Below, piece by piece: positions 214-20,037 of a stretch of 25,879 bases of DNA; position 1 is the stretch's first letter; every line of letters begins with the position of its first letter. Location of the stretch: the IMG/VR virus record IMGVR_UViG_3300004770_000100, positions 1 through 25,879 of that record; one strand, 5' to 3'. The stretch comes from a virus. Under the pieces are notes generated by a model. It saw only the letters and a program-made list of their open reading frames with translations. It ran no database searches and had not been told where the DNA came from. A program made the position numbers and the translations under genes.

Positions 214-2250
214 TTACTTTTTCTTGAGTTCTTCAACTTCCTTGCGTAACTCACTAATGGCAGCAAAAGCTAAAGCAGCTAATTTTTCATAGTCAACTGC
301 CAATGTACCATCTTTTTTCGTTCTAACTGCTCTTGGGAATGAAGCAAGTACATCTTGAGCAATAACACCAAAGTCTTGTTTCTGCATAAAGTAATCATCA
401 GGACCACCATGATCTGCAATATATTCATCAGTCCAGTCAAATAATTTACCACCAATAGCATCTACTGTATCTAATGCGTTTTCGATTGGTTGAATATTTT
501 CTTTGAATTTTCTATCAGATGAATAATAAGCAGTAATATTGTTATAAGAATACAACGCACCGCTCGATGGATTTACAAATAAGTAGTCTGTTCCGTATGC
601 GTTAGTTCCTGAACCCCACAATAATTGATAATTAGCATTAGTGTGATTAGAATATGCAATTGCATAAGTGGCAGCATATGTAGCATTTTGAATCGCTCCT
701 GACGACGTTAAATATCCGGAGTCATTACCAAATTGTGATACAAGAGTCGGCCTACCAGAAACACCAGTCCAAGCAACAGAACTAGCAACTGCAGCAGTTC
801 CAGTTATATTAATTCCCCAATTACCAGAAGCGCCAGTACCCGTTAATGTTGGTGTATATGTGTTATAGTTTGCCGCAGTAACAACTTGTGAACTATTAAT
901 AGTCAAATTGGTGAAATTAGTTTGTGTTGTTGTGGATGCGTTGCCGGAGATATTAATACCAAAAGTTCCACCTGAACTTAATTCGTTTAATACAAAACCT
1001 GTAGTAGCAATTTGTGTATTACTTGTTCCATTTACTGCTGTTGGTGCTGTTGGGAATCCACTTAATGTCAATCCTGAGAAACTTGGTGATGCAGTTGTTC
1101 TAAGGTCTTGTGCATTGCTAATATATAATGTGTTTGCTACTCCAGATATGACCACACCATTATTACTTGCGTAAGTGATTACTCCATTATTTGATATTGC
1201 TTGTCCGGTTGTTCCATTGAACGTTCCAGTACCAGTATTTGCTCTATTAAAGGCAGCCTGAGAAAATGAAGTTAATGTACCTGAATTGGATGTAAGTTGT
1301 GATTGTAATGAAGCTACATTTGCTTGTAAGTATGTGTATACTGTGTTTACCGCAGTTTGTGATGCCAAACCATTTGAATTAACAGTAGTAATCGAATCAC
1401 TAATTAGGTTAGCAGTAAGAATCTTAGAATAACTTGTTGAATTGTTTACGTCACGAATATCCCAATAAGTATTTGCTTCATTCCAACGAATTGTTGCAAG
1501 CGGTAAAGCCCCACGATTTACATTAAATGAACTAATTGCACCCACCGAACTATTGGCATTAATTGTAAATGTATTTGTATTGTATACTGTTGTTCCATTT
1601 AAAACAAAGTTTCCACTAACGGAAAGTTGTCCACCGATGGCAGCATTATTAAAAATATTTAATGATGAACCAATAAATGATTGTGAAGCAACAAAGTCGG
1701 TAGCATTAACGTCATTAGTTACGGTAATATATTTACCTGCATTAATATTACCCGAAAATGAAGCATCTTGCAAAACACTTAATGTATTTTGTAATGTGAC
1801 GGCACCAGTAGTGAGTAGTGTACCACCTATGTTAGCATTACCTACAATTGTACCACTTTGATAGACAATAACGTTTCCACCAATTGTAGCATTATTTGAT
1901 ACCTGTAAACCATTACCTGAACCCATGGCCAACAAAGGACCACCAATATTTGCTTGGCCTGAATTGACTAAACCTAATGTTGTGTTTGTAAAATATACTT
2001 GAGTATCGACACGAAGATTATTTTGAATGTAAGCAGAAGAACCAACACCTTGTACTTGTAATTGACCAGCAATAACAGCGTTATTGGCAACCTGTAATCC
2101 CAAGTAAGGTGAATTTAGGTAAAGAGTTCCTGATGGCTTAATATAATTACTAAGTGCCAAATTGTTATTTTCTAATGCCAAATTGTTAATGGTGACCATT
2201 TGATCACCAAAGGTATTGGCATAACTTAAAAAGTTTACTGTATTGGCCAT
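214..2250 (-). CDS. Tail fibre with C-terminal S74 intramolecular chaperone
   Basis: A 678-aa trimeric fibre-type protein. Residues about 1-280 are short beta repeats of the form 'NNAxIGGxLxVxG', expected of an elongated trimeric stalk. Residues about 320-345 carry an 'SQAAFNRANTG' repeat and about 400-430 a 'PTAP...NTQIATTGFV' segment, both usual in phage fibres. The last 102 residues (577-678) are a Peptidase_S74 domain: the S-D-x-x-x-K dyad is visible as S578, D579 and K583 in SSDRKFKENI, followed by 'FGVIAQDVLASFPRAV', 'VDYEKLAALAFAAI' and a short terminal coiled coil. Known family behaviour is that this domain trimerises and folds the fibre, then cleaves itself off before the catalytic serine, so the mature fibre should end near residue 577. 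It follows the 72-aa gene by 7 bases. It probably binds the host surface. Confidence 0.9.
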   Translation of the reverse strand: MANTVNFLSYANTFGDQMVTINNLALENNNLALSNYIKPSGTLYLNSPYLGLQVANNAVIAGQLQVQGVGSSAYIQNNLRVDTQVYFTNTTLGLVNSGQANIGGPLLAMGSGNGLQVSNNATIGGNVIVYQSGTIVGNANIGGTLLTTGAVTLQNTLSVLQDASFSGNINAGKYITVTNDVNATDFVASQSFIGSSLNIFNNAAIGGQLSVSGNFVLNGTTVYNTNTFTINANSSVGAISSFNVNRGALPLATIRWNEANTYWDIRDVNNSTSYSKILTANLISDSITTVNSNGLASQTAVNTVYTYLQANVASLQSQLTSNSGTLTSFSQAAFNRANTGTGTFNGTTGQAISNNGVITYASNNGVVISGVANTLYISNAQDLRTTASPSFSGLTLSGFPTAPTAVNGTSNTQIATTGFVLNELSSGGTFGINISGNASTTTQTNFTNLTINSSQVVTAANYNTYTPTLTGTGASGNWGINITGTAAVASSVAWTGVSGRPTLVSQFGNDSGYLTSSGAIQNATYAATYAIAYSNHTNANYQLLWGSGTNAYGTDYLFVNPSSGALYSYNNITAYYSSDRKFKENIQPIENALDTVDAIGGKLFDWTDEYIADHGGPDDYFMQKQDFGVIAQDVLASFPRAVRTKKDGTLAVDYEKLAALAFAAISELRKEVEELKKK

Positions 2251-2478: not shown

Positions 2479-5400
2479 TTAATTAGTTGTATTAACGTTT
2501 GACGGCAAAGCAATAGCTTGTAAACTATTGACAACAGGAACTGCCGTTTTATCTGTGGTAGTTAATACAACTTTAATCGCAAATTGACTAAATGAATTGT
2601 ATTTTTGACCATTCAAACTTGTGTATGATATAAAACCTTGATCAACACCTGTAGTTCCTGGAGCAAAAGTGTAATCATTAATGTCTGTTCTAAATTGTGA
2701 ATAAAGATTGTCTGAACTACTTGTTTTAGTCATTAATTGCCAAATACCACTCTCAAATGTTTGAGTATCATTGCGACTTAAAATCTTGTAGTAAACATTA
2801 ATATCCGTATTAACAGGTCGATATGCACTTATGGTCACATTCAAGTCACCAGAATCGTTTCCAGGTGCCAATACAACTTTCTTAGTAACGTACTTAGTGA
2901 GTGCAGGTCCACCAGAGGATGATGTTTCTCCTGTAATGTTTGCGGTTGCACCAGTACCAGAACCGGATGAAATATTGATGGTTGGTGTGGTAATATAACC
3001 TTGACCACCCGAAGTAATATAAATCGAAGTAACATTGCCATTTACCACATTAGCAGCAGCATATGCTTGTACTCCATTTTTACCTGTAGGAGCAGAAATC
3101 GTTACGACTGTATTTGCAATGTTATAAAATGCACCAGGAGTAACCAAGTTAATTAGGTTATTTGATAATGAGCAATTACCAATGGTCCAGTTAATAGCAA
3201 AGGTTGATAATCCAGCATCTGACAAAACTGGACTTACATACGGATCAGCACTAGACAATACGGCAGTTAAAATAAATGAAGCGTTAGCATTAGCATTAAG
3301 AACACGCTCGCCATTGCCATCATTCAAATAAAGGTTATCAGCCATCGATGTTCCATATTTTCCTGGAGTAACACCACTAAAGGCAGACATTGAACCTGAA
3401 GCCAGTGTTGCACTATATTGATATGAAATACCAGCAGTTGTTGGAACAAAATCAGTCGTTGTAATATTAAAAGCATCAACTAAGGCAGATGTTGATGATA
3501 TTGTCGTTACTGTATTTGGAACATTATTTGCACCATTGAAATAATTTAATGACTGTTCTACTAAAGAACGCCTTGGTAATTTAGCAGGAACAATAAATGC
3601 AATTGTAGGTGTTGTAGAAATATTGAAAACACAGCAATCAGCAACAAACATTAATCCTTGATTTTGGTCTGCTGTCCAAGTTTGTGAATTTTGTGATAAA
3701 AACAATGCACCAACATAAGGAGCTGAACCAATTTTAGTTACAACCGATGGTGTAGCATCAGTAGGTTTATTTTTAACTGAAGATGATACTGCTATATCTC
3801 CTGATGAAGCTGTCCACAAATTATAATCACTTGAATTTGTTTTAACAATAAACGCATACAAAGTATTAGGTTGAATGTATACAGGAGCATTAAATTCAAA
3901 TTGAGTATATGCTGTTGAATCTAAAAATTGTGGAGTTCCTGATACCTTAACCATATCTGGAGTCATAGTAACAATAGAGTGATCTAATGTTTGCCCATTT
4001 GGATAACCATTAAGTGTACCAACAATTGATACTGTAATTGGAGAATTTCCAGTAGGTTTTGTTTTAAAGAACAATTTAATGGCATTTAAAAATAAACCAT
4101 TTGGATAATTAGCAGAAGATATTATAAATGTTTGCGCAACAGGATCGTAAGGACTATATGTTGTTACAACATTAGTTGATGATTGTTGACTTGTTTGTGT
4201 GAATGTATTTTTTGCGCCAGCAGGAGAAGCACCAAAGTCAACAGACTGTGAAGTTGTTTGTAAACCTTCAGCATAAAATGTTGCTTGAGCAAATGTTGTC
4301 CAACTTGCCGGATTAAAATTACTACCGTTATCTAATTGTAATACTCTTTGGCCTGTATGGAAAATGCCAGCAGGAATATTAAAAATGCCGTAGAACGAAC
4401 CATATTCATCAGTATTCATATTACCAATAGAATATACAATATTTGTATCAACATCTAAGGCAGGAGATATTGTTGCGGTTTTTGTTGAACCCACATATCC
4501 TGTAATTATTGCTGAAGTTCCAATCGCAGCAGAATCACCGGTACAGAAATAAATTGTATTGCCTGTATAGTAATTATCGGTTGCAGAAGCTAAAGGTGAA
4601 AGTTGAACAGTAGTTGTACCATTACCTCCAACTACACGAGCACCAAAATGACTTTGACTTACAAATAAACCACTAGCACTAGATGAAACATAATTTCCAT
4701 TTTGGTCAAAATAACCATTTTGTATAGTTTCTCCAACTGAATTAGTACCCGAATATGAAGTTGAGTAAGGATCAGAAGCAACATACAATCTTGTGTTGGT
4801 TGTTCCTGGATAATTCTGAACACCAATAATTCGTGCGGTACCTGTAAACACACCGGCGATACGATAACCAATAATATCATTTACATTAAAGATACCAGTA
4901 ACACCAGACAATTCAACCACGTTAGTTTTACGAATATATTGTTGAATATTTTGATTATCAAAAGAAGCTTCTAATTGTGTATTAAACAATAAATTTTGTG
5001 CAGATACAATTATTTCTTGTGACTGAATGTATGGTAAAACCGAAATGTCTGTGATATAACCATTATTCAATGCGTATGTGTTTCCAAGACTATCATAGTT
5101 ACCCATGATATTAGTTTGTTGTTGTACTTGACTAGAATAGGTTGTAGTAGCGGTATAACCAACAGCAGAACCAAATGGACTTTGTACATTAGGATTACCG
5201 TGATTAACAACTGATAGGCTTGAAGAATATGATGTTCCTGAAATTGTTTGCCAATCTCCTGCCGATAATACATTGACTACGGCTGGATTGGATTGAAACA
5301 CTTGTAAATTAGGATCAGTAATCAATAGACCAGGAGCTTGTGTGTTGTCAACCCAATTATCTACGTTAGGTGTTAATGATAACTCACCTTGTTCGGTCAC

Positions 5401-8400
5401 AAAAGAAAACGGATTAGCATTAACAGTTCGTGAAGCAAATTGTTGAACAATTGCATTAGATGTTGTAAAAGGCAAACTAAAGTAATTTACTAATCCATCG
5501 GTGCCAATATTATAACCCAATGAACCTGATTGAGCACCTGAAGATAATCCCATATTGTATGCTAAAGCTAAAGCTTTCAATGGATAATTATTGACTTGTT
5601 GTAAAGCCGTCATTTGATTTGTACGTTTATTGATTGATACTGAATAATCAGGATTTGCAGTATCAGCAGTTGCATAACTAGAAAAGTTATCAACCATAAT
5701 ACCATTTTTAAACCTGTTTAATCCATAAGCATCTGTTATTTGCAAAGATTGTGCATTTTGTTCCAATAAACTCAATGATGTATAAGATTCAATATTACTA
5801 ACACGGGTATCCAATGCACCAATATCAGCCATTGTATAACGTTTGTGTGAAACCGGAACAACAGATAAATCTGAAACATAACCTGCTGGAGCTTCAGTTG
5901 TAATATATCCTGTGTATGGTTTTAATGTTAATTGAGCAAGAATTAAAGAACCATCAGGATTTGCCGGCAATACAGGATTAACAGAAGGCGTTCCTTCTAT
6001 AACTTTAAAACTTCTGTCTTTACTTAAAACGAGATAATCTTGACGACCCAAATAATGTGAATAACTACCTTCAAATAAAGTTGAATCTATAGGTATATAC
6101 AAACCAGCATTTGGATTACCACTAGAATACCGAAATGCGAATGTGGCTTGACCATTTATTCGAGCAGGCCTAAAATCAATAGAATCTCTGAGTGAATATA
6201 ATGTGCCAGTTGCACTAGTATATTTTGGAATATTTTGATAAGTTGTAGGCAATGCAGAATTTAGGTATGACCTAATATTGAAATAACCATCACCACCACT
6301 ATGTTGATAATAGTTTACTACAACCAAAAGATTACCTGAAGGTTTAGGTGCACCTGCATTTAATGTAATAGATGCGTGATCATAAAAACCATCACGTTGG
6401 CCATTATCAAAACTGAAATTTGAAGTTACATCATATGAAGATCCTGCACCCAACATACCAACAGTAGGTAATGTGCCAGGAGCTCCTGTATCTATAATCT
6501 GTTTAATACTTATTACGTCAGCTAGATATAAAGATTGTTTTTGACCTGGATTAACCAATCCAGCATTTTGAATGTATACTTGACCAGATGAAGTTAATGC
6601 AGTAATATCCACATATGTGGTTGTACTACCAGTAACTTGTGTAAGTGGACTTCCAAATCCAACATTAACCGCACTGGTGTTTGCAGAAATAAAGTTTTTA
6701 CTTTTAAGTGTATAGTTTGTGTCGTCAGCATTTTCAATAAAAACATTTTCAACAATAGTTGCATTAAAAGAATAAGCAATGTCGGAATTGTTAACGGCTA
6801 GTGTGGAAACTGAAGCATCAGAATTTAAACTAACTGTTCGTGTAGCTGTTGTCCAAGGCAATACATCACCAACATTAATATTTGAATTTGAACCTTTATT
6901 TGTAACAATGATCGAATAATTTTGTTTTACTAAAGAGGAACTAAGTGTCGAAGATGGTGCACCAAAGTGAATTAATTTTCCATATTGGCCACCAGTATAA
7001 CTTAATTGTGTACTAAAACCAGAACCCGAAGCAGTAAATGCTACGTTTCTCCACAACTGTTGGGTTGTATAGTTTGTGCTGGTCAATGAAGCGATATACG
7101 GAGCACCTAAAGAAAAGATTAATTCTGGCGCACCTGGATTTTGTAAAAGTGTATTTCCAAAAGAATCTTTGCCACTAGCTGAATTAATATTGGCTGAACC
7201 AACAATAGTTGCTGGATAAGAAGATTTTGTTGCAGCAACTATTGTATTAGCTTGTGCAATTGTAAAATTGAGTGAGAACACCGAAGTAGTATCTGGTATT
7301 ACTGTCCAATTTTGATTAACTGTTGCAGTCTTATTCACACCATTATATGATGTGATTGTTCTAAAATCGCCTGCATCAGTACCAGAATTAATAGTAATGC
7401 TAATATTATTATAAGCATTATTTGATGAAGAAAAATAACTTGGAAACGTAATTGAGTTTGCTGTTGCAGAAATTGCAGTATTACTTAATGTTGAATTCTG
7501 TAAATTACTTACAAAGAATTTATAAACATATGTATTGGCGATTAACCCATTAGATGTATCATGGTCATATAAAAGACTACGAACATTACCTGTGGCCACC
7601 AAGGTAGAAGAATATGCCAAAGAAGATGATACATTTACACTAGCCAAAGGTACACAATGTAAATCAACACCTTGTTGTGTTGTTGTGTCAAAGAACGAAC
7701 TATTGGCACCACGAACTGTATCAGTATACAAATAATTACCATATGCCAAATAAACAGGTGCATTATTTTGTGAAGCCGTTGTTCTAGCACGATCAGTAAC
7801 TAAATCAACGTTAGTTGTACTTTCGATACGCTTTCCGTGAACATATGCTATACCTTTACCAATACTCATTGTGTAAGTATTGTTGGAAGAATCGGCTGTA
7901 TTTGTTTTAGGTGTTAATTTGAAATTATTAACAACATAATCTCCGTTTGTTTCATAATCACGCTTAGCAAAATAGTCATCAATTACCGAATAAACAGAAC
8001 CGTCAACTAATTTAGCAATTTGGCCATTTGTAATACGAATCAACTCAATAAATCCATCATCATCACCAAATGATAATCCACGGGTTTCTAATGTTAGGGT
8101 AATTTGATATCTATCTGCGCCTGGTGCTTGATAGTTTGACGCACCAACAGCAGGATCTAATAATGAAGCATCATCAATGGAATCATGAATTGTTTCGGTA
8201 ATGTTTAAACCAACTCGTAAATTAGGAGCAGCATCATACTTGCTTAATACAATAGTTTGTGGATTAACTTGAACAAAGGTTCCTGTTGAAATAGTTTCAC
8301 CAGAAGAACTAACATAACTTCCTGCAATATAAAAAACACCTTGAGCAATCGATGCAACGGAAGAAGTTCCTGTTGCTCCGGTCAATTGAGCTTGTGCCGC

Positions 8401-8844
8401 TAAATTTGATAATGTGGCATAAATTACAGCACCATTGGTAAATTGGTTACCTGAAATATAAGATACAATAAGCGTAGGCGGATCACCTACACCTGCGGTT
8501 CCTGTTCCTGGTATTGCTACAAGCACTTTAGCTAAAACTGTACCAGTAGAATCTTGAATCAGTAAACCATTAAATTGTGAAATATCAACAAGAGCATTAT
8601 TGTATGTTGGTTGTAATTGAATGTAATAGCAACCCAAATTGGTTGTTACTTGGCCGCCAGTAACCGGTGAATTAGGTGCAAAAATATTATCTGCAAAATT
8701 AGTAATTTGATTTTGTAATATGGATTGAGATTGAGTTAATTCACGAGCTTGAACCGCAGCACCTGGTTTAAATAAAATCCGATGGTAGTTTTTAGCCGGA
8801 TCAAAATCATCGTAATAAGGGGAAACATTGAAATTCAGGGACAT
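2479..8844 (-). CDS. Giant DUF4815-type virion structural protein (baseplate/fibre)
   Basis: At 2121 aa this is the largest gene in the window. The N-terminus, with 'YYDDFDPAKNYHRILFKPG' then 'AVQARELTQSQSILQNQI', is the signature of the DUF4815 family of T4-like marine phage structural proteins. The rest is long, beta-rich and full of Ser/Thr/Asn/Gly, with no membrane segment or recognised enzyme motif. A GxGY beta-module sits near residues 1930-1972, and the last about 150 residues contain 'DNLYSQFRTDINDYTFAPG', which may be a terminal attachment domain. The start follows a clear AAAGGA ribosome site 9 bases after gp8. Its position after gp8 and before the fibre genes suggests a peripheral baseplate protein or fibre connector, roughly where T4 has genes 9 to 12. 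That placement is inference; the structural role is well supported. Confidence 0.8.
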   Translation of the reverse strand: MSLNFNVSPYYDDFDPAKNYHRILFKPGAAVQARELTQSQSILQNQITNFADNIFAPNSPVTGGQVTTNLGCYYIQLQPTYNNALVDISQFNGLLIQDSTGTVLAKVLVAIPGTGTAGVGDPPTLIVSYISGNQFTNGAVIYATLSNLAAQAQLTGATGTSSVASIAQGVFYIAGSYVSSSGETISTGTFVQVNPQTIVLSKYDAAPNLRVGLNITETIHDSIDDASLLDPAVGASNYQAPGADRYQITLTLETRGLSFGDDDGFIELIRITNGQIAKLVDGSVYSVIDDYFAKRDYETNGDYVVNNFKLTPKTNTADSSNNTYTMSIGKGIAYVHGKRIESTTNVDLVTDRARTTASQNNAPVYLAYGNYLYTDTVRGANSSFFDTTTQQGVDLHCVPLASVNVSSSLAYSSTLVATGNVRSLLYDHDTSNGLIANTYVYKFFVSNLQNSTLSNTAISATANSITFPSYFSSSNNAYNNISITINSGTDAGDFRTITSYNGVNKTATVNQNWTVIPDTTSVFSLNFTIAQANTIVAATKSSYPATIVGSANINSASGKDSFGNTLLQNPGAPELIFSLGAPYIASLTSTNYTTQQLWRNVAFTASGSGFSTQLSYTGGQYGKLIHFGAPSSTLSSSLVKQNYSIIVTNKGSNSNINVGDVLPWTTATRTVSLNSDASVSTLAVNNSDIAYSFNATIVENVFIENADDTNYTLKSKNFISANTSAVNVGFGSPLTQVTGSTTTYVDITALTSSGQVYIQNAGLVNPGQKQSLYLADVISIKQIIDTGAPGTLPTVGMLGAGSSYDVTSNFSFDNGQRDGFYDHASITLNAGAPKPSGNLLVVVNYYQHSGGDGYFNIRSYLNSALPTTYQNIPKYTSATGTLYSLRDSIDFRPARINGQATFAFRYSSGNPNAGLYIPIDSTLFEGSYSHYLGRQDYLVLSKDRSFKVIEGTPSVNPVLPANPDGSLILAQLTLKPYTGYITTEAPAGYVSDLSVVPVSHKRYTMADIGALDTRVSNIESYTSLSLLEQNAQSLQITDAYGLNRFKNGIMVDNFSSYATADTANPDYSVSINKRTNQMTALQQVNNYPLKALALAYNMGLSSGAQSGSLGYNIGTDGLVNYFSLPFTTSNAIVQQFASRTVNANPFSFVTEQGELSLTPNVDNWVDNTQAPGLLITDPNLQVFQSNPAVVNVLSAGDWQTISGTSYSSSLSVVNHGNPNVQSPFGSAVGYTATTTYSSQVQQQTNIMGNYDSLGNTYALNNGYITDISVLPYIQSQEIIVSAQNLLFNTQLEASFDNQNIQQYIRKTNVVELSGVTGIFNVNDIIGYRIAGVFTGTARIIGVQNYPGTTNTRLYVASDPYSTSYSGTNSVGETIQNGYFDQNGNYVSSSASGLFVSQSHFGARVVGGNGTTTVQLSPLASATDNYYTGNTIYFCTGDSAAIGTSAIITGYVGSTKTATISPALDVDTNIVYSIGNMNTDEYGSFYGIFNIPAGIFHTGQRVLQLDNGSNFNPASWTTFAQATFYAEGLQTTSQSVDFGASPAGAKNTFTQTSQQSSTNVVTTYSPYDPVAQTFIISSANYPNGLFLNAIKLFFKTKPTGNSPITVSIVGTLNGYPNGQTLDHSIVTMTPDMVKVSGTPQFLDSTAYTQFEFNAPVYIQPNTLYAFIVKTNSSDYNLWTASSGDIAVSSSVKNKPTDATPSVVTKIGSAPYVGALFLSQNSQTWTADQNQGLMFVADCCVFNISTTPTIAFIVPAKLPRRSLVEQSLNYFNGANNVPNTVTTISSTSALVDAFNITTTDFVPTTAGISYQYSATLASGSMSAFSGVTPGKYGTSMADNLYLNDGNGERVLNANANASFILTAVLSSADPYVSPVLSDAGLSTFAINWTIGNCSLSNNLINLVTPGAFYNIANTVVTISAPTGKNGVQAYAAANVVNGNVTSIYITSGGQGYITTPTINISSGSGTGATANITGETSSSGGPALTKYVTKKVVLAPGNDSGDLNVTISAYRPVNTDINVYYKILSRNDTQTFESGIWQLMTKTSSSDNLYSQFRTDINDYTFAPGTTGVDQGFISYTSLNGQKYNSFSQFAIKVVLTTTDKTAVPVVNSLQAIALPSNVNTTN

Positions 8845-8853
8845 TTTTTTCCT

Positions 8854-10218
8854 TTAAAATCCTAATACAAATTTGTATTGTTCTATACCATCAAAACTTC
8901 TTGTGATACCAGTTCTATTTTCGATGACCGACATATAACCAGAAAAACTAATAAAATCTGGCTGATTAACCGTTAATAATGTTCTTGCTGTTGCCGAACT
9001 ATTTCCATAAACAGTTGCGTTCAATATTGGAGTACCTGTTATATTTATGATGTGAACCACATTGGTTGCTGGATCAAAACTTAAAACTGTTCCAACATAT
9101 GTTGCAGTTTCTAATGATGATCCTTGATATACCAATTCATCGGAAACAAAAGAACCAAAACCTGAAGCCACAATTAAATCAGTAGATACTTTATATATTG
9201 ATCCATTAGCAAAACCAGGATATGTACTTTGTGCCATTGGATTAATTAATATACCAATTTGACGATAATCAATATCGGTGGGAATTACACCACCTTCAGA
9301 ACCACTAAATTCACAAGTAACCATTACATGCGAACAACCTAATTCCGAAATAGGATCGAAACCATGGCCACCAATAGGCGAAGAAGCCGTTTTTAATACA
9401 ACACCAGAACCTAAGGAACTAACAGCAGTAACTCCATAATTAATATAATTACTTCCTGGATTAGTTACAACAACCTCAGTAATTGCACCATTAGAAACTA
9501 CTGCTCTAGCAGCAGCGCCTGTGCCATTACCTGTAACTACAATAGAAACTGATGCGTTAGCTGGATCATATCCTGTTCCACCACTAACTACATTGATTAC
9601 CTCAATATCACCTGATCCAGCAGTAGTTTGCATTGGATTAGGAGTGTTATATCCAACTGGTATAGGCATCCAATCAACATCCATAAAATTCTTTTTTGTT
9701 CCGGCGTCAATGGTATACATGTATTTCCACTTATATCCATCGGCCCCAATATAAATGTTATCTGTTCCGTAACTTCCTGGTTGAAAGAAAGGTTCGTTTA
9801 CTGTACTAGCACGATTAGCATTCCATAAACACTTGAATACTTGGTCATATCTATTTCGAACATAAAATTGTAATACTATAAAACCATTTTGATCGAGTGC
9901 AAACATATCAATATCATCATCATAATAATCATATATTTGACTTGATTTCCAATCAATTCTTTGAATTACTGGAGAAATATCATTTGATGTAACATGCTTA
10001 GCAACAAAAATATTATTAAAAACGGATTTAATATATGCTTGATCTTGTGTTGGTGTTGGGGGAGTCAATTCATTGTCCCACGCATCAACTTTAGCTAAGA
10101 AAACGTATATGCTAGCGATTGTAGTACCTGAAACAGGCAATACCGCTGCGGGTGAATAATAAGTTTGCTCTACTTGAGCAACTCTTGATGCGTATGTTAG
10201 AAGGTCTTTATTTGCCAT
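8854..10218 (-). CDS. gp8: Baseplate wedge protein gp8
   Basis: A 454-aa protein; T4 gp8 is about 334 aa and forms a dimer in the baseplate wedge with gp7, gp10 and gp6. Visible gp8 features are the early 'IYVFLAKVDAWDNE' with 'PPTPTQDQ' (residues 37-60), 'VIQRIDWKSSQIYDYYDDD' (84-102), the 'DGYKWKYMYTI' strand (160-170), 'PIGGHGFDPISELG' (281-294), and the C-terminus 'ENRTGITRSFDGIEQYKFVL', which matches the usual gp8 ending. The extra length comes from inserted modules: a GxGY beta-module at about 203-262 and a 'VYQGSSLETATYVGTV' module at about 360-412, both also found in the 957-aa protein. It follows the 610-aa fibre-like gene by 10 bases. The AATAAATA before the start overlaps the upstream stop codon and is probably not a promoter. 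Confidence 0.9.
   Translation of the reverse strand: MANKDLLTYASRVAQVEQTYYSPAAVLPVSGTTIASIYVFLAKVDAWDNELTPPTPTQDQAYIKSVFNNIFVAKHVTSNDISPVIQRIDWKSSQIYDYYDDDIDMFALDQNGFIVLQFYVRNRYDQVFKCLWNANRASTVNEPFFQPGSYGTDNIYIGADGYKWKYMYTIDAGTKKNFMDVDWMPIPVGYNTPNPMQTTAGSGDIEVINVVSGGTGYDPANASVSIVVTGNGTGAAARAVVSNGAITEVVVTNPGSNYINYGVTAVSSLGSGVVLKTASSPIGGHGFDPISELGCSHVMVTCEFSGSEGGVIPTDIDYRQIGILINPMAQSTYPGFANGSIYKVSTDLIVASGFGSFVSDELVYQGSSLETATYVGTVLSFDPATNVVHIINITGTPILNATVYGNSSATARTLLTVNQPDFISFSGYMSVIENRTGITRSFDGIEQYKFVLGF
8983..9141 (-). other. 'VYQG' beta-module inside gp8
   Basis: Residues about 360-412 of gp8 read D-E-LVYQGSSLETATYVGTV and continue to a 'TGTPILNATVYGNSS' turn. The same order of elements (VYQGTSLSNTSYIATV and so on) occurs in the 957-aa protein at residues about 556-612. 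T4 gp8 is not known to have such an insert. Confidence 0.55.
9433..9612 (-). other. GxGY beta-module inside gp8
   Basis: Residues about 203-262 of gp8 carry 'VVSGGTGYDPA', 'VTGNGTGAAARAVV' and 'VVVTNPGSNYIN': a Gly-x-Gly-Tyr turn, a small-residue-rich strand, a central 'NGAIT' turn and a return to a second G-x-x-Y turn. The same plan recurs in gp6, the 957-aa protein and the DUF4815 protein. Confidence 0.6.
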
Positions 10219-10228
10219 GGTCTATTTA

Positions 10229-12061
10229 TTAAGCGTGGATGACAGAAACTAAAGTATTAGCTAACGTACCGTCAACACAGAAATACCTCGCACAAATAGT
10301 TGATGTACCTGGTATACTATAAGTAGTAGCATTTATTGTAGAATTAATAGCAGAAACGCCAGATGTATAGGTTTGATTAGTGCCTGCCGTATTTGTGATC
10401 CATAATTCAACTACTTTACCAATAGTATAATTAGTCATCGATACAACTAATCCTGTCGATGTTTGTGCTCTTAAAACTGAATTGTTTGCAAAATCAATAG
10501 TAATTGCTGTTTGAGCAGCAGGATAAACCAACGGAGTGTAAATGAACCCTTTAGCTGGATTAACATTACCCACAAAGGTGGCGGTTTCTCCGTTAAATAC
10601 TGCAATTTGAGATAATGTATTTGAGCCAATTCTAGTATTCCAGAATTGCAGCTGGGTACCTTTGGTGGTATCTGTAAAATTCTCGGCAGCAACAAAATCG
10701 ATTCTTGATTGGCCAAATTGACTAAAATTATTTGACCAACCGTTGCCAGACAATCTTAATAATATATCACCGTTTGCAGTTGCTAATGGAGAAACAGCAG
10801 AACCTCTAGCCGAACGACCTACATACACTGGATATGAATTTGCACCAAAAGCATCATTAACAATACGTGAAGATGTATTTGCAAATCCTGTGATTTGCAT
10901 CATATATCCTTGGTTCAAAGGTGATTGTGAATAACCTGTATTTGCTGATCCTGTAATTTTAAATGCTGGTGTGTTAGCAACATAGGGTACAGCGTTAATT
11001 GTAAATAATCCAGCAGCACCAACACCAAGTACTTGTATGTTACCGGAAATAGTTATATCTCCAGCAGTAATAACTCCATTGGTATTTGCCAAAGCATTAT
11101 TTGCTTTTAGGAAAGATGCTTGTGTAAAGGCTGAATTGGAACTAATCCAGGTATTTTGAGTTGTATTAATACCTGATAATAAAATAGTATTTGCACTAGC
11201 TGAATTGGCTTGAGCAAAAGCTGCTTGTGAAAAGGCTGAATTGGAACTAATCCAGGTATTTTGTGTAGCATCTACACCTTGAGTAACTACTGTATTTGCT
11301 TGTGATGAAGTAATTTGAGCATTAAATATTAATGCTTGAGTTTGAATTGTTGATACATTTGATTGTAATACACCTACTTGTGAATTTAGTGTTGTTATAC
11401 TAGAATTTCCAGTATTTGCTAATGCAAAAGCAGCTTGTGAATAAGAATTGGAAGCCGCAGCGGTTCTTTGTGTTGTTCCGTCACCGAAGGTAATACTTGT
11501 ACCTGTGTTCATTGACAAACCAGAGTAAGTCATTTTTACAACAACGTTTTGCGCTTGGCCACCACCAACCATAAATCTTAATTGTGTGCCTGTTGTTGTT
11601 GTGCCAATGGTTAAATTTCCACCATTTGCTCCCGGAGTACCCTGAACATATAAGTATCCATCAAGTGGATTAATTGCAGTGCCTATATTATTATATTCTA
11701 ATCCAGGTTGATAAAATTTGTTTGCATAACCCATATCAATGAAATTAGCTGAATCTGTACCACCAGAACCAGTATTGGCGGTTATGACTATATCCGCAGT
11801 ACCACCATCATTAATGTTTACTAAATTAGTTTGAACATATCCATCAGCAGCTGCTGAAAATTGAGCAATTGTATTGGGTAGATTTTGTTGAATTGCACCA
11901 ACATTAAGAATTTCATTCGAGTAAAGACCTTGAGCAATTGCGTGAGCGCTCATTCGGAAAGTTGTTTGACTTGGTATATCTACCCCTGCAAATACAGTAT
12001 TTGAAGTATTTGCATTAATTGTAGCTGCTAAAGGTAGTTGTGATATTTTTATTGTGGACAT
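10229..12061 (-). CDS. Fibre-like virion structural protein with SQAAFxxAN repeats
   Basis: A 610-aa protein. The N-terminus 'MSTIKISQLPLAATINANTS' resembles the baseplate- or virion-attachment segment of marine T4-like fibre proteins. Residues about 75-195 contain 'NINDGGTADIVITANTGSG', 'FIDMGY', 'DGYLYVQG' and 'GGNLTIGT', a beta-domain common in cyanophage fibres. Residues about 204-330 hold three 'AFxQAxFxxAN' repeats, two of them inside a long direct nucleotide repeat with 'QNTWISSNSAF'. The C-terminus ends 'CARYFCVDGTLANTLVSVI'. There is no S74 domain, so it is not self-cleaving in that way. It lies between the gene-7-position gene and gp8, unlike T4, where gene 8 follows gene 7 directly. 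It is probably a wedge-attached short fibre or whisker-like protein. The structural role is likely; the exact location in the virion is inferred. Confidence 0.7.
   Translation of the reverse strand: MSTIKISQLPLAATINANTSNTVFAGVDIPSQTTFRMSAHAIAQGLYSNEILNVGAIQQNLPNTIAQFSAAADGYVQTNLVNINDGGTADIVITANTGSGGTDSANFIDMGYANKFYQPGLEYNNIGTAINPLDGYLYVQGTPGANGGNLTIGTTTTGTQLRFMVGGGQAQNVVVKMTYSGLSMNTGTSITFGDGTTQRTAAASNSYSQAAFALANTGNSSITTLNSQVGVLQSNVSTIQTQALIFNAQITSSQANTVVTQGVDATQNTWISSNSAFSQAAFAQANSASANTILLSGINTTQNTWISSNSAFTQASFLKANNALANTNGVITAGDITISGNIQVLGVGAAGLFTINAVPYVANTPAFKITGSANTGYSQSPLNQGYMMQITGFANTSSRIVNDAFGANSYPVYVGRSARGSAVSPLATANGDILLRLSGNGWSNNFSQFGQSRIDFVAAENFTDTTKGTQLQFWNTRIGSNTLSQIAVFNGETATFVGNVNPAKGFIYTPLVYPAAQTAITIDFANNSVLRAQTSTGLVVSMTNYTIGKVVELWITNTAGTNQTYTSGVSAINSTINATTYSIPGTSTICARYFCVDGTLANTLVSVIHA
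11117..11158 (-). repeat. 42-bp direct repeat, copy 1
   Basis: This copy matches 11222-11263 with one mismatch at its ninth base; the last 33 bases are identical. On the minus strand it encodes QNTWISSNSAFTQAS in the 610-aa fibre-like protein. Confidence 0.9.
11222..11263 (-). repeat. 42-bp direct repeat, copy 2
   Basis: This copy starts 105 bases (35 codons) from copy 1, so recombination between copies would remove or add exactly 35 residues in frame. It encodes QNTWISSNSAFSQAA. Confidence 0.9.
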
Positions 12062-12069
12062 TTATTAAC

Positions 12070-14943
12070 CTAATCTAAAATGATTTGTGTTTCATCTTCT
12101 GTTGTAAGTGTGTTTCCGTTTTCATCAGTTAATACCGGTATGTTTACTTCACCTGTGGCACCAAATATTACTACTTTACCATCATCAGCAAAAAACGTTC
12201 TACTTACCGACATTAATGAATTTACTGAATTTGATAATGCGCCAGACAAATAAACAATATTATTATTATAATCAACCCCAGCTACCGTTTGTACTGAATT
12301 ATTTGCAATTAAAATTGTATCTGTGGCATATAAAATATCCTGTAACGGAATGTTAGGATTTTTATAGTTACCATTATTTACAATATTATATGAACCGGTT
12401 AGACTCGTTATATTTATATATGAATCTCCTGCATTAGCCGTAACATAGGCCACATTCGCAAAAGATAACCAAACGTTATCTCTTAAAGTAACCGTATTTG
12501 CACCAGGAGTGTTACCAATATGCGATGAGAGTATTTCAGAATAAACCTTTTGGCCTGTTGCCGTTGAGGTCATTTGTAAAGTATCTCCTACTAACATTAT
12601 CGCTTGTAAATTAGCAGAAGCAAGACCATTAAAGGTAACAATATTGGTACTGGTATTCACAAAATCGGATATCATTGTACCTGAAGAATAATTTGTTCCG
12701 GTATAATGTGGTAATGTATGAGCTTGTTTTAAATCACCAAAAACATTAAAGTTTGTAGACGCATTGGCTTTCATAGCATATCGACCAATTACTTGCATGC
12801 CCGTAGGATGTAACAAATCTAATAATGTGTTTCTATATTTGGAAATTTCTCTTTCTAATGTAAGTTCATATGTGTATTTGTTATATATTGTACTTTGTAA
12901 TACATCATATGAACTGAGTTGACCTGATGAATCCAAGTATTGACCAGAACTAATAGCCAAACCATTCAAGAAGGTTGTATTTGCCCTAGCACTACCATCA
13001 CCATAGGTAATTACACCAGTTGAATCATATCTTGCATTAGGGTTAATTGAAGTATATAAATTGGTTAAATTTAAATTAATATTCTTTGAAACTGATGCAG
13101 ATGAAACTACATGAAGTTGTTTTGCATATTGTGGCAAATTATTGTAATTGTAAACTCTAATATTGTAAATACTTTGTGTAGGATCAGAAAAACCTTGAAG
13201 AACTGTAATTGAATCTACTGTAGCAATATAACTTGTATTAGATAAACTTGTTCCTTGATAAACAATATCACCACGACTAGGTAAATTAGATACAGATACA
13301 TTACTCACAGCAATATCTTGAATCTTCAATGAAATAGTAGGGTTTGATATATAATCTGTTCCGAAATCACTAACAGAAATAGTACTAATAGTACCAATAC
13401 GATTGGTAATTGATGTAAATTTAGCTCCATCACCTAAAACACCCGGCACGTAAATTGAAGCATTTGATCCTGATACAGAATTTATTGTAACTACAGGCAA
13501 AGAGTTTAAGTTGTAACCTAAACCACCTAAAGGATACGGATGAGGTAATTGGCCATTGTTAGGATAAACATATCCTACTGTGGAAATTGCACCAGCAAAA
13601 TTAACTGAAGTTACATTAGCGTATGCGCCATATCCTGATCCTCCAGCAAAAACAATTTTATCACCTAGAGCGTATCCTGTTCCAGCATTAACGATTTGTA
13701 TCGGTGCCAACATTCCTAAAGTGTTTAAGTTTGAAGTTGATAGATCATCAACAGGAAATTGTGATAATGCAGTAATTCCAGGAGGTACACTTAAACCACC
13801 GCCACCATTTTGTAACAATATTGATGAAATTGGATATGTGGTTAATGAAGTAAAAGTAAAAGCATTTGCAAAAGAGGTATTTGCATTTGCTGAAAGATTA
13901 GTAGAGAAATAATAATTTGAATTTCCTAATGGAATGTTCTTTTTTATACCAATTGTATCAGTAGGGATAAGAGTAGCAACGGCAACTCCACTAGGAGATA
14001 ATGTTCCTACTACTGCAATAGGTGAAGCTCCACCTGGAGTAATATCAGAAAAAGAAATTATTGTATTGGGATAATTAGTATATCCATAACCACCATTATC
14101 AACAGTAATACGCTGAACCGAACCTGTAGTTGTTGTTCCTACAACCGCAGAGGCACCATGACCTGTATTGGAATTTAATCCTCCAATGAATACTAAAGGA
14201 TCACCCGGTTGGTAATAATTTCCTCGGTTACTTGGATCAATTTTAACTTGGCTAATCTGACCAATAACTTTTGCTCGTAACGGATTTCCATTAAAAAGAA
14301 CATCTTGATTGTTTGAATCTACCACACGAACATATTCACCAGATTCAAACAGTCTTTCAATATTGGAAATAAACACTTCCGTTTTTGCACCATCAAAAGT
14401 AGTTGCTTCTATGGTAGCGATTGATTTTGTGGATTCACCAACAATTCGATAATTAGCAATTAATAAGAAATTAGGATCATTTGTATTTAAATTCAAACTT
14501 TTAGCAACATACCAAGTACCAGCTGAAGCTTTTAGTACAGCAGATTCCGTAAAAAAGAAATCTACATCAGTATTATATAAAATACGAAATAAGAATTTAA
14601 ATGATGCGGGTGTACCTTTTGTTTGATATAGTTGTTTTGCTATTTTTATGACTTTAGATTTATCGGCCAGAATATCTGCTGGAAAGTAAGGCATAAAATC
14701 ATTATAAAAATAATCTATAAATTGATTAACAACTGAACTAGAACCTTGAGCTGCTTGCAATTCATCAATATCTTTATAACTTAATAGATTTTTTGATAAA
14801 TCCATTACACCATCTTGTTGTTCCATCCATTCATAATATGCTTGTAAAAACAAGACAAAATTGGCGTAATTAGGATCTTCTCGAACAAACGCAGGAAGTT
14901 GTGATGGTACTAAAAGCGAAGTTTTTTGATTACTTAGAATCAT
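12070..14943 (-). CDS. Large baseplate wedge protein in the gene 7 position
   Basis: A 957-aa protein encoded directly between gp6 (ATGA overlap) and the 610-aa gene that precedes gp8, that is, where T4 has gene 7 (1032 aa). The N-terminus with 'QLPAFVREDPNYANFVLFLQ', 'AYYEWMEQQDG' and 'TKGTPASFKFLFRILYNT' (residues 15-125) is a recognisable conserved domain of marine T4-like phages. The middle (about 232-541) contains at least three GxGY-type beta-modules, and residues 556-612 a 'VYQG' module. Residues 690-725, 'EISKYRNTLLDLLHPTGMQV', look like a conserved helical domain. I see no sequence match to T4 gp7 itself. I infer that it takes gp7's place in wedge assembly because of position and size. 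The baseplate role is well supported; equivalence to gp7 is not shown. Confidence 0.7.
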   Translation of the reverse strand: MILSNQKTSLLVPSQLPAFVREDPNYANFVLFLQAYYEWMEQQDGVMDLSKNLLSYKDIDELQAAQGSSSVVNQFIDYFYNDFMPYFPADILADKSKVIKIAKQLYQTKGTPASFKFLFRILYNTDVDFFFTESAVLKASAGTWYVAKSLNLNTNDPNFLLIANYRIVGESTKSIATIEATTFDGAKTEVFISNIERLFESGEYVRVVDSNNQDVLFNGNPLRAKVIGQISQVKIDPSNRGNYYQPGDPLVFIGGLNSNTGHGASAVVGTTTTGSVQRITVDNGGYGYTNYPNTIISFSDITPGGASPIAVVGTLSPSGVAVATLIPTDTIGIKKNIPLGNSNYYFSTNLSANANTSFANAFTFTSLTTYPISSILLQNGGGGLSVPPGITALSQFPVDDLSTSNLNTLGMLAPIQIVNAGTGYALGDKIVFAGGSGYGAYANVTSVNFAGAISTVGYVYPNNGQLPHPYPLGGLGYNLNSLPVVTINSVSGSNASIYVPGVLGDGAKFTSITNRIGTISTISVSDFGTDYISNPTISLKIQDIAVSNVSVSNLPSRGDIVYQGTSLSNTSYIATVDSITVLQGFSDPTQSIYNIRVYNYNNLPQYAKQLHVVSSASVSKNINLNLTNLYTSINPNARYDSTGVITYGDGSARANTTFLNGLAISSGQYLDSSGQLSSYDVLQSTIYNKYTYELTLEREISKYRNTLLDLLHPTGMQVIGRYAMKANASTNFNVFGDLKQAHTLPHYTGTNYSSGTMISDFVNTSTNIVTFNGLASANLQAIMLVGDTLQMTSTATGQKVYSEILSSHIGNTPGANTVTLRDNVWLSFANVAYVTANAGDSYINITSLTGSYNIVNNGNYKNPNIPLQDILYATDTILIANNSVQTVAGVDYNNNIVYLSGALSNSVNSLMSVSRTFFADDGKVVIFGATGEVNIPVLTDENGNTLTTEDETQIILD
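12411..12418 (-). promoter_or_regulatory. Possible internal late promoter (TATAAATA)
   Basis: A perfect minus-strand TATAAATA inside the 957-aa gene, about 350 bases before the start of the 610-aa fibre-like gene. It could raise expression of the fibre-like gene and those after it, but in AT-rich coding DNA such an octamer can arise by chance. Confidence 0.25.
13108..13278 (-). other. 'VYQG' beta-module inside the 957-aa protein
   Basis: Residues about 556-612 read 'SRGDIVYQGTSLSNTSYIAT' and continue through a 'VYNYNNLPQYAKQLHVVSS' segment. The order of elements parallels gp8 residues 360-412. Confidence 0.5.
13321..14250 (-). other. GxGY beta-module cluster inside the 957-aa protein
   Basis: Residues about 232-541. 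Units include 'VDNGGYGYTNYPNTIISF', 'IQIVNAGTGYALGDKIVF' followed by 'GGSGYGAYANVT', 'GGLGYNLNSLPVVTI', and 'VSDFGTDYISNPTISL'. Each pairs a G-x-G-Y turn with an alternating hydrophobic strand. Confidence 0.6.
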
Positions 14944-17021
14944 GAATTTATTTTAGCAATAACAGTAGCAACAACGGAAGCAGGATCAAAAGGATCAATT
15001 GTAATGATTCCGTCAAACGTTGATGAAATGATAGAAGTTGGGGCTGGTGTTGCTATAATAGATAATTGCCCTAGTGGATTATCGAGACCAACTGGATTAA
15101 AGTTGGCCAATGTAATAATTCCATTAAGGTAGTCAACTGTACCAATATTTGGATTTAATACTGTTTTCGCCTGTTCGGAATTATAATAATAGGTTCTTAG
15201 TGTGCCATATTGACCCTGTAATTTTACAGTAGCTGCGCCGTTTTGACCAGTCGTATCACCTGGTTGAGGTGCGATTGATATAACTGCGCTGGTGTAATTA
15301 TTACCCGAACTAATAACTTTGATGCCCGATAATGATCCACCACTAACAATAGCCGTTGCAACTGCACCAGAACCGTCACCTGAAATTTTAATTATTGGTG
15401 GATATTGATAACCAAACCCCGGATTAATAATTGAAATCGTATCAATACCAAAAGTAGATTGAGCAATTTCATCAATATACACTCCGGAAATTGTATTAGC
15501 TAAATTAGCTGGATTTAAAAAGCTCATACTAGGAGAATTTGAAATACCACTTAATATAGAACCTCTTTGTAAAGGAGTATTATAATATAAGTTGTAGGTA
15601 CTTGATGTTACTAGATTAGGATAGAACCTTTTTGATAATTGAACATTATATTGAGTTGATACAATAGATTGGTCATAATTGGTTACAGCAGTCAATAATT
15701 TATATGGTGAGAAACTCGAATTAAAACCATTGAGTGTGTTTATACCAAAGCTTTGAACTGCCGTAACAATACCAGACTGAATTTGTGAGGATGTTTGTGT
15801 AGTTTTACTAGGATCAAAAACTGCATTAATATTCAAATTAATATAAGTATAATCCGGATCTACAATATTAGGATTAACAGTTAATACTGAAATTGGTTGA
15901 ATAACTTCAGAAATTATTCTTTGTTTTTGTGATTGCGTTAAACTGTAGGCACCAGTTGGTTTTAAACAAATAAACGCTTGGCCATAAACAGGAGGATTAT
16001 TTTCTTCCCCACCCCATACATTAACCGCATCAAATGAAATTCCCAACGAATTCTGTTGAATTGCTGTGATGTAATCACTCTTAGTTACTGCACGGCCTTG
16101 TGATGCGTAGTTTTTAGGAGCTTGAAATTTAATAGAATCAATGGATTCTTTATTACCACCTGTTGTTGCTGGTGTTACTGAAATGACTGCTGACGGAGCA
16201 TGACCCGAAACCGTATTCATCAGAACAAAAGAATTTGCTCCGGCACCAGAGGTTCCCTCGGTGGAAAGATAACTAACAATTACAATGTTTCCATCTGATA
16301 GTTGTTGTCCTAGTATACCATCACCAAAATATATTTTGTAATTTCCATTCAAAGCTTCTTCCAAGAAATAAACTTGTGAGGTTGAAGTTAATGTTAACTC
16401 ATTAATTGCTGGATTAAAAACATTATATGAAGAATTGGTTAAAGAAGCTTGTACAATAACCTGTAATGTTGTGGTATCAATTGAAGCATCTGGTATTTCA
16501 AAAGTATATGTTGGATTTGTCGATGAAGCAACAGTAAAGTTGTATGTTGCCGGAACACCCTGTTTAATTGCTATATTATTAAATGTTGCAGTATTTGAAA
16601 TTACAGGTACCGTACAAGCATCGGGATTAACAAAAGTATAGTTTACTCCTTTAATTGATGCTGATGCAAAATTTTGATATGCTGGTAATGTAAAAGACCC
16701 TGGTGCAACATTTTTGAATATAATATTAACGGTTGCAGTAGGTGTAATTGCTGATTTTGGTGTATATCCCAGTATTTTTGCTTGAGAAACAACAGAACTT
16801 CTTTGAGTAGCCGAATCCAAAAACATCTCATTGGCAACCATATTTAAATAATAAGCATTATATTGTGTATTATATGCTAAAAGGTCAATAAGTGTGTTTA
16901 ATGTAGAACCTTCAAAATTATAATCTTTAAAGGTGTCTTGGCTTTTCAGAAAAGTAGTAAAACTACCTTTGAGTGTATCAAAATCTAGATTTGTGACTTG
17001 TGTATTGGTATTAGCGGCCAT
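14940..17021 (-). CDS. gp6: Baseplate wedge protein gp6 (baseplate J family)
   Basis: A 693-aa protein (T4 gp6 is 660 aa). gp6 dimers form the ring that ties wedges together around the hub and transmits the trigger for sheath contraction. The N-terminus 'LKGSFTTFLKSQDTFKDYNF' with 'LIDLLAYNTQYNAYYLNM' and 'FLDSATQRSSVVSQAKILGY' is diagnostic of gp6 in this phage group. 'YFGDGILGQQLSDGNIV' (residues 231-247), followed by a Gly/Ala-rich turn, is the baseplate J (gpJ/gp6) core motif. A GxGY beta-module sits at about 526-602, before the C-terminal 'GTVDYLNGIITLANF' domain. The start overlaps the gp25 stop as TAATG and its end overlaps the next gene as ATGA, so gp25, gp6 and the gene-7-position protein are translationally coupled. 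Confidence 0.93.
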   Translation of the reverse strand: MAANTNTQVTNLDFDTLKGSFTTFLKSQDTFKDYNFEGSTLNTLIDLLAYNTQYNAYYLNMVANEMFLDSATQRSSVVSQAKILGYTPKSAITPTATVNIIFKNVAPGSFTLPAYQNFASASIKGVNYTFVNPDACTVPVISNTATFNNIAIKQGVPATYNFTVASSTNPTYTFEIPDASIDTTTLQVIVQASLTNSSYNVFNPAINELTLTSTSQVYFLEEALNGNYKIYFGDGILGQQLSDGNIVIVSYLSTEGTSGAGANSFVLMNTVSGHAPSAVISVTPATTGGNKESIDSIKFQAPKNYASQGRAVTKSDYITAIQQNSLGISFDAVNVWGGEENNPPVYGQAFICLKPTGAYSLTQSQKQRIISEVIQPISVLTVNPNIVDPDYTYINLNINAVFDPSKTTQTSSQIQSGIVTAVQSFGINTLNGFNSSFSPYKLLTAVTNYDQSIVSTQYNVQLSKRFYPNLVTSSTYNLYYNTPLQRGSILSGISNSPSMSFLNPANLANTISGVYIDEIAQSTFGIDTISIINPGFGYQYPPIIKISGDGSGAVATAIVSGGSLSGIKVISSGNNYTSAVISIAPQPGDTTGQNGAATVKLQGQYGTLRTYYYNSEQAKTVLNPNIGTVDYLNGIITLANFNPVGLDNPLGQLSIIATPAPTSIISSTFDGIITIDPFDPASVVATVIAKINS
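15216..15446 (-). other. GxGY beta-module inside gp6
   Basis: Residues about 526-602: 'ISIINPGFGYQYPPIIKI' then 'SGDGSGAVATAIVSGGSLSG' then 'IKVISSGNNYTSAVISI'. This is the clearest single copy of the module in the window and shows one full period. Confidence 0.65.
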
Positions 17022-18239: not shown

Positions 18240-19037
18240 TTAAATAAACGGTATGTTGGGTGGACTTGTTGGATATCCTTTGTTCCCAATGTGTGTATGG
18301 TTACTATAAATCTTACTATTAACTGTATCTCGCATCCAAGTAGCATCCATTAAACCTGTTATTGTCGCAACTGGAATATTAGCAATTGGCGCATTAACTG
18401 ATACTAGTGAAGTAATTAATCCTAACGAATATATTCCTAATGTTCCAGCATATACACCGGTTCCAGCATTAACTCTTGTTTTAGCGGTTATAACATCACC
18501 AGAAACGACACCAGCAACTTCTAAATCAGAAGAAACATATGTATGATCGTCAGAATTAAGATAAATGTTACTAGGATTTGCATCAGGAGAATTGCTGTGT
18601 GCAGAAAGGTTCATATCATTATCGGAGATTAAGTTTAATCCTTTGACTCCAGCAACTCTGGCCACCAAACCACCACCAACAATAAGATTGTAATTTCCAT
18701 CAATCTGTTCGGTTTTATCACCCTTTACATGCATATTACAATCACCATTTATTGTGATATTACAAGATCCAGTAATTGATACATTTTTTCCACCAACAAC
18801 AATTTCATAACCATCACCATAAATTTTGTGAACTTCATCACCATTCGGTTGCAATTCAATAAAGGTACCCGATTTTCCGTGTTGTAATCGAATGCGTTCA
18901 CGGGTTGGTGTATCATCCAATTCAAAAGAATGGCCACTTTTACTTTGAGTTACATTATTATAAGGATACTGTGGCTGATAATCGGTGTTAGCTGCCGATT
19001 CTGGTTGAGTAAAACCACTATTTAAAGGATTTGCCAT
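18240..19037 (-). CDS. gp5C: Central spike beta-helix protein (gp5 C-terminal domain as a separate gene)
   Basis: A 265-aa protein matching the C-terminal part of T4 gp5. Residues 24-60 'YPYNNVTQSKSGHSFELDDT', then 'RERIRLQHGKSGTFIELQPN', parallel the T4 segment that begins the needle (YPYVHTMETESGHIQEFDDT). Residues 62-130 then give repeats of the form 'GDxxxxVxG' ('GDGYEIVVGGKNVSITGS', 'GDCNMHVKGDKTEQIDGN'), the intertwined trimeric beta-helix that pierces the outer membrane. The C-terminus has 'SNHTHIGNKGYPTSPP', with H247 and H249 in an HxH pattern that in P2 gpV and similar spikes binds a metal ion at the tip. The lysozyme and OB domains that precede this part in T4 gp5 are missing from this gene; the OB domain is encoded two genes upstream. 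The start overlaps the previous stop as TAATG. Confidence 0.9.
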   Translation of the reverse strand: MANPLNSGFTQPESAANTDYQPQYPYNNVTQSKSGHSFELDDTPTRERIRLQHGKSGTFIELQPNGDEVHKIYGDGYEIVVGGKNVSITGSCNITINGDCNMHVKGDKTEQIDGNYNLIVGGGLVARVAGVKGLNLISDNDMNLSAHSNSPDANPSNIYLNSDDHTYVSSDLEVAGVVSGDVITAKTRVNAGTGVYAGTLGIYSLGLITSLVSVNAPIANIPVATITGLMDATWMRDTVNSKIYSNHTHIGNKGYPTSPPNIPFI

Positions 19038-19732: not shown

Positions 19733-20037
19733 TATTTACTCTTTCTAAGTGATGGTAAAATTCCCATCATAATTGGATATTGTCCGGACTCACCATCCAT
19801 GAAGAATCCAACGACCCACTCACCTTCATTTGGAATTTGAAATGACTGTGAATTGTTTATTGATACCATTGGATGTGCCCATGGTAAATCTTTTGTCGGT
19901 AAGGCAGAGGTATCTTCGGTATGCCAGCCAAATATTCTAACTTGGCAACGACCAACACCCAAAGGATCAACTATAGTTTCAATTACACCTACCCACCAAA
20001 CGAAACCAGAAAGTCCAAGAAAATTATTACGATTCAT
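19732..20037 (-). CDS. gp5N: gp5 N-terminal OB-fold domain as a separate gene
   Basis: A 101-aa protein matching the OB-fold that begins T4 gp5. 'WWVGVIETIVDPLGVGRCQV' then 'RIFGWHTEDTSALPTKDLPW' (residues 14-53) parallel 'WFVGVVEDRMDPLKLGRVRV' with '...IPTEKLPW' of T4 gp5. 'GEWVVGFFMDGESGQYPIMM' (72-91) is the second conserved part of the fold. In T4 and in VgrG-type spikes this domain trimerises and seats the spike under the hub trimer. Here the gene stops right after the fold; the rest of gp5 is absent or encoded in the following two genes. TAATG overlaps link it to the hub gene before and the 231-aa gene after. It is complete, with no sign of frameshift or decay around its stop codon. Confidence 0.88.
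   Translation of the reverse strand: MNRNNFLGLSGFVWWVGVIETIVDPLGVGRCQVRIFGWHTEDTSALPTKDLPWAHPMVSINNSQSFQIPNEGEWVVGFFMDGESGQYPIMMGILPSLRKSK

Follow-up and report, generated by a model that had tools for sequence, protein, structure and literature searches.

How does the same beta-rich sequence plan come to lie in four different baseplate genes of one phage, and what might it do there? The question is raised by IMGVR_UViG_3300004770_000100, a 25.9-kb virus record analysed here over its whole length (25,879 nucleotides; 'the window'), in which genes for the baseplate of a T4-like phage lie, most of them in minus orientation: gp25, gp6, a 957-residue wedge protein in the gp7 position (p957), a 610-residue protein (p610), gp8, a DUF4815 protein and a fibre-like protein. 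The original prediction, made from the sequence alone, had seen a common plan of GxGY and small-residue turns in gp6, p957, gp8 and the DUF4815 protein, and took it for a mobile in-frame domain, perhaps a polymer-binding or interlocking surface of the baseplate. We find that the copies share a common origin, that each is built from two tandem halves, and that the insertions are old; we also suggest, more cautiously, that domain I of the T4 sheath protein gp18 is a relative of this 'GxGY module'.

Results

One homologous domain in four genes

A profile built from the gp6 module of the window and 80 orthologs from viral contigs, and from nothing else, was searched against the other window proteins. 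It picked out gp8 (residues 205-264; 32.2 bits, E-value 4e-11), p957 (239-304; 15.1 bits, 9e-6) and the DUF4815 protein (1938-1970; 13.4 bits, 3e-5), all above the best domain found in shuffled sequences (at most 9.3 bits; 200 shuffles per window protein tested, local composition kept), and a second search program returned gp8 (1.6e-10) and p957 (1.7e-5) at the same places. The plan claimed for the four genes is thus borne out by profile matches across genes, and a profile from the gp6 copy does link the others above the background of low-complexity beta sequence. Module limits, set by iterated profile search, are given in Table 1; the predicted range in the DUF4815 gene, 2931-3081, does hold a module, but covers mainly its second half, the full copy spanning 2917-3153. 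The whole module is visible in 38 DUF4815 orthologs; apparent absences from this family proved to be contigs ending before the C-terminus, a targeted search finding the module in 38/38.

Could such copies have arisen separately, by convergence on beta sequence rich in Gly and small residues? The G, S, T, A and N composition of the host proteins is of low complexity and lends this some plausibility, but the scores exceed those of composition-matched shuffles, and the low-complexity beta proteins p610, p678 and gp5-like of the same window, the first two equally rich in G, S, T and N, have no match to the gp6-only profile. Convergence is further contradicted by a collinear alignment over ~70 residues, by structural matches in other viral proteins, and by the specificity of the search over 117 bacterial genomes from two phyla, seven of which were matched at an E-value of 1e-6 or below, the two seed genomes not counted (4/58 in the phylum of the Verrucomicrobia metagenome-assembled genome (MAG) and 3/59 in that of the Microbacterium genome). 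We regard it as highly improbable.

Pfam and NCBIfam contain no model covering the module, either in the phage copies or in the five cellular proteins examined; none of the Pfam immunoglobulin (Ig)-like families matches its sequence, the literature on the motif yielded no named family, and a PDB sequence search with the gp6 copy alone gave chance-like matches only (BurrH repeats).

Two tandem halves

The module, of ~75 residues, consists of two tandem copies of a 38-residue half with the plan IxVxNxGxGY, strand, GxGxGA, AxAxV; the halves align with one another at an E-value of 2.9e-10 (score 39.9; the best of 200 column shuffles reached 13.1). Across 49 diverse copies, G10, G48 and Y51 (the first Gly, and the Gly and Tyr of the second GxxY) are invariant, with Y13, G25, A28 and G37 nearly so. 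Conservation therefore falls on turn Gly, Ala and Tyr residues, with no conserved exposed aromatic or charged site common to the copies; such a turn-limited pattern fits a scaffold with variable surfaces, and decides neither for docking nor for glycan binding.

In an AlphaFold2 model of gp6 465-693 (56 sequences) the module has a predicted local distance difference test (pLDDT) score of ~90 and six strands (62-69, 79-84, 87-96, 99-110, 115-120 and 132-137 in the model), and in the gp8 model the module region is all-beta at a pLDDT of ~93. On these models, the module is predicted to be a compact, six-stranded, all-beta unit of two tandem halves, each running strand, GxGY turn, strand, GxGxGA turn, strand. 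Foldseek found no confident match to the gp6 model in the PDB. A calcium-binding role, considered for the GDGTGA turn, was dropped because the DUF4815 and p957 copies do not retain its Asp.

Old insertions, inherited in place

The window gp6 and gp8 are orthologs of T4 gp6 and gp8. In the window gp6 the module stands between a GVYIDEI and the GTLRTYY strand, where the gp6 of S-PM2 (602 residues), HTVC008M (618) and Melnitz (612) has only a short stretch; the gp6 module is a clean insertion, absent from the gp6 of other lineages. T4 gp8 has far fewer residues at the corresponding site, and in a gp8 model that otherwise matches T4 gp8 the module is extra sequence, an insertion relative to the T4 protein. 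Among the T4 baseplate and neck proteins tested, gp6, gp7 and gp8 included, none gave a convincing module match; the prediction was right that T4 gp6 and gp8 do without it, and T4 probably has a single copy, gp18 domain I.

In a tree of 102 copies, clades form by position with starred support (gp6 98/98, gp8 97/95, DUF4815 98/98, and the three p957 modules a 100/99, b 100/99 and c 99/94) and 9 label changes over six labels, with a few misplaced long or mislabelled rows, and with rows short enough to leave the deeper order unresolved. This clustering by position marks the insertions as old and inherited, with no sign of current movement: an earlier spread of the module was followed by inheritance of each copy in place. 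Recent shuttling among the four genes is rejected on the same grouping. In-frame insertion at different points, as originally proposed, holds for gp6 and gp8 (absent from orthologs or from T4) and for many unrelated carriers; the word 'mobile' survives in a historical sense only.

The module is retained in 81 of 81 gp6 proteins, in the 38 DUF4815 proteins and in the gp8 of those clade members read; more widely, gp8 carries it in every marine T4-like phage examined, diverged in places. The gp7-position proteins are the most variable, with 0 to 13 modules. These counts bear on an alternative in which the module is structural filler, that is, a stable and easily inserted beta domain that would add thickness or stiffness to wedge proteins and be tolerated without selection for any common binding. 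The widely varying copy number at the gp7 position is what filler would produce, as are the occurrence of the module in unrelated cellular proteins and a conservation confined to turns; its retention at each position in nearly all clade members, however, suggests selection at each place, and we consider the filler explanation distinctly unlikely.

A wide range in phages, a rare one in bacteria

For a scan of the collection a single P-RSM6 copy served as the query, a broad alignment of the module being too diverse for that purpose. Whole-genome matches number 23 in P-RSM6, 18 in S-PM2, 3 each in HTVC008M and Melnitz, 2 in BUCT-ZZ01 and 1 in T4. The S-PM2 carriers are gp5, the gp7-position protein, a DUF4815-type protein, fibres and gp18, and in cyanophage P-RSM6 the 8573-residue CPXG_00128 (L086:15908-41629), directly after gp6 and annotated as hypothetical, holds 13 GxGY modules. 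Among the PHROG profiles that contain it are those for wedge proteins of the baseplate, hub/lysozyme proteins, tail fibres, virion structural proteins and head-closure Hc2 (gp14-type) proteins. The predicted viral structures of BFVD yield matches at 1.1-2.6 Å (76-85 columns) in a Sylvanvirus protein as well as in fibre and YHYH-domain proteins.

In bacteria the module occurs rarely. In Microbacterium sp. Leaf151 and in a MAG of a deltaproteobacterium (L159:3236-4921; L164:533-1921) it divides a CrtC lipocalin domain in two, with a weak match to the first part, and in Verrucomicrobia it is found in BspA-LRR and RCC1 proteins. To speak of a 'baseplate' module is thus correct for the baseplate proteins and too narrow overall, fibre, hub, sheath and cellular proteins having it as well. 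It is a real, unnamed and promiscuous domain of phage structural proteins and secreted bacterial proteins, placed in-frame within loops of proteins not otherwise related to one another. A single profile now captures it in numerous virion proteins that lack annotation, from abundant aquatic phages, as well as in certain surface proteins of bacteria.

Probable kinship with domain I of the T4 sheath

The only match in the T4 genome is to gp18, at residues 102-158 (E-value 4.6e-5 for that genome). Domain I of gp18 (98-188) is a six-stranded barrel with a helix, inserted, protruding and outside the sheath-sheath contacts; in T4 it binds the baseplate and also the long tail fibres when these are retracted, and the gp18 changes G106S, S175F and A178V inhibit fibre retraction (PMC3004832). 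By profile-profile alignment with hhalign, module positions 3-78 pair with gp18 100-186, limits that coincide with those of domain I, at a score of 27.9 (E-value 7.4e-5); the controls reach at most 18.3 in 200 column shuffles, 10.9 for gp18 segments outside domain I, and 13.3 for 147 segments from other proteins of T4 and the window. The published gp18 numbers fit the gene only without Met1, and the three residues are G107, S176 and A179 of the gene product. In the alignment, G107 pairs with the module's invariant first Gly and A179 with the Ala in its second GxGA turn, which S176 immediately precedes.

Domain I (PDB 3FO8, 3FOA) shares with the module its six strands, its size of ~90 residues, its insertion in another domain, an end-to-end profile-profile alignment, and fibre-retraction mutations that fall on or beside turns conserved in the module. 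It differs in having a longer, dissimilar segment in place of the second GxGY turn, in sitting on the sheath and not the baseplate, and in being missing from the gp18 of the window's own clade. Judged by sequence, domain I is probably a diverged member of the GxGY family and its best solved relative; this link is supported, and is weaker than the shared origin of the copies, the tandem halves, the gp6 and gp8 insertions, or positional inheritance. If it is true, the fibre-gripping knob of the T4 sheath falls within a wider family, and the first Gly of GxGY becomes a testable site for the holding of fibres by marine phage baseplates.

Discussion

Synthesising these observations, we propose a speculative model for what the module may do. 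Most likely it stands out from the cores of its host proteins as a 'knob', one end of which would be formed by the two conserved Gly turns. We suggest that this turn-bearing end may dock other parts of the virion (fibres, neighbouring wedge proteins or the sheath) on the baseplate, much as gp18 domain I does in T4 for the baseplate and for long tail fibres in the retracted state; the gp18 link favours such docking by analogy, and docking is our best guess as to function. Taken as one reading, in which a homologous domain in four baseplate genes forms a protruding knob, is kin to gp18 domain I and serves in docking, we would give the proposal an even chance.

Several points weigh against it. 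When all PDB sequences were searched, T4-type sheath proteins came top, at an E-value of 0.043, which is weak for this single-sequence search; 3FO8 and 3FOA are not among the listed structural matches of the module model, an absence that is not informative either way; and VIA gave general beta-sandwiches only, at Z of 3.5 or below (the best ~3.3 over the module range), and therefore no known fold is claimed. The sheaths of the window's relatives (L138-L142) have 562-570 residues against 659 in T4, lacking domain I and being shorter by ~91 residues, the size of that domain; the T4 contacts therefore cannot be carried over directly. The family is also present in bacterial secreted proteins, where virion docking cannot be its role, and the matching domain of a marine tailspike has been compared with sugar-binding domains (PMC13317679).

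That tailspike, Dpo31 of marine phage Carin-1 (PDB 28LX, 8CK1), points to a different function, in which the module would be a glycan-binding domain and its copies around the baseplate would adhere, weakly and multivalently, to polysaccharide on the host surface or to an environmental polymer. The Dpo31 D3* domain (434-536), proposed to lie near a depolymerase site, is inserted, protruding and Ig-like (PMC13317679), as the module may be, and has two GxGY-type turns at 451-505; the frequency of the module in tail fibres, and in bacterial leucine-rich repeat (LRR) and Ig-containing proteins, would also suit adhesion. However, Dpo31 is a podovirus tailspike whose link to the module is weak (profile match at 451-505, E-value 3.2 in a PDB-wide search; DALI Z 2.9), the conserved turn residues offer no common exposed site of the aromatic or charged kind, and some copies lie in hub and sheath proteins and not near the fibre tips that face the host. 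By analogy, glycan binding is a serious possibility, albeit a doubtful one.

A broader form of the docking proposal would make the GxGY module a general, unnamed docking knob of contractile-tailed phages, with T4 sheath domain I as one copy and with marine and freshwater T4-like phages carrying the knob in gp6, the gp7-position protein, gp8 and fibres, such that fibres or neighbours are held by many turn-based contacts on the baseplate instead of on the sheath. We think this generalisation unlikely as it stands.

Ig-like domains of tailed phages (I-set, FN3, Big_2) are small beta-sandwiches added to many virion proteins, and surface adhesion or decoration has been suggested for them. The module resembles them as a small beta domain in many kinds of virion protein, and differs in having no Pfam Ig-like match, in its two tandem GxGY halves, and in being inserted internally and in-frame. 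Hoc is among the proteins with promiscuous Ig-like domains of tailed phages (PMC10385173). The BACON tandem repeats of crAss-like phages (PMC6949934) likewise consist of a small beta module that is repeated within a structural protein of the phage and has bacterial occurrences, but they belong to another sequence family, and the module has no match to the Pfam BACON model. Beta domains inserted in virion proteins of phages are a kind already known, which the GxGY module joins.

Window genes and further observations

Table 1. Module-bearing genes of the window and their GxGY modules
Feature	Window position	Strand	Evidence
gp6, baseplate wedge, 1 module	14940..17021	-	PHROG 219 E 5e-149; Pfam Gp6-like; hhalign to T4 gp6 E 6e-45
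GxGY module in gp6, residues 526-603, between GVYIDEI and GTLRTYY strands of C-terminal part	15213..15446	-	profile and alignment of 81 orthologs
p957, 957-residue baseplate wedge protein, gp7 position, 3 modules	12070..14943	-	PHROG 17744 baseplate wedge E 1e-43
GxGY module a in p957, residues 234-306	14026..14244	-	15.1 bits with gp6-only profile; E 6.6e-16 iterated
GxGY module b in p957, residues 414-495	13459..13704	-	E 7.5e-11 iterated
GxGY module c in p957, residues 473-542	13318..13527	-	E 9.5e-9 iterated; half unit in common with module b
gp8, baseplate wedge, 1 module	8854..10218	-	model matches T4 gp8 1n7z, Z 20, 264 residues
GxGY module in gp8, residues 205-274	9397..9606	-	E 4e-11 with gp6-only profile
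DUF4815 protein, 2121 residues, 1 module	2479..8844	-	Pfam PF16075 E 3e-57
GxGY module in DUF4815 protein, residues 1898-1976	2917..3153	-	13.4 bits with gp6-only profile; E 7.8e-12 iterated

Besides its wedge profile match, p957 has a weak match to gp7 of a T4-like phage. From a reading of the sequence, gp5 seems to be split between a 101-residue OB-like open reading frame and one of 265 residues resembling a beta-helix (window 18240-19037 and 19732-20037, minus strand), with no lysozyme domain evident between them, and the C-terminal SDRKFKENI... of the 678-residue fibre-like protein p678 (214-2250, minus strand) appears to resemble an intramolecular chaperone tail of the Peptidase_S74 type.

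A second shared domain ('VYQGSS...ATVLSFD'), an EF-Tu-domain-like barrel, occupies gp8 344-422 (window 8953-9189, minus strand) and recurs in p957 542-579 (13207-13320). Its gp8 copy (346-420) matches T4 gp7 768-845 (5iv5_BJ) at Z 8.2, with a root-mean-square deviation of 1.7 over 69 residues, and a profile of it matches p957 and S-PM2 gp14.

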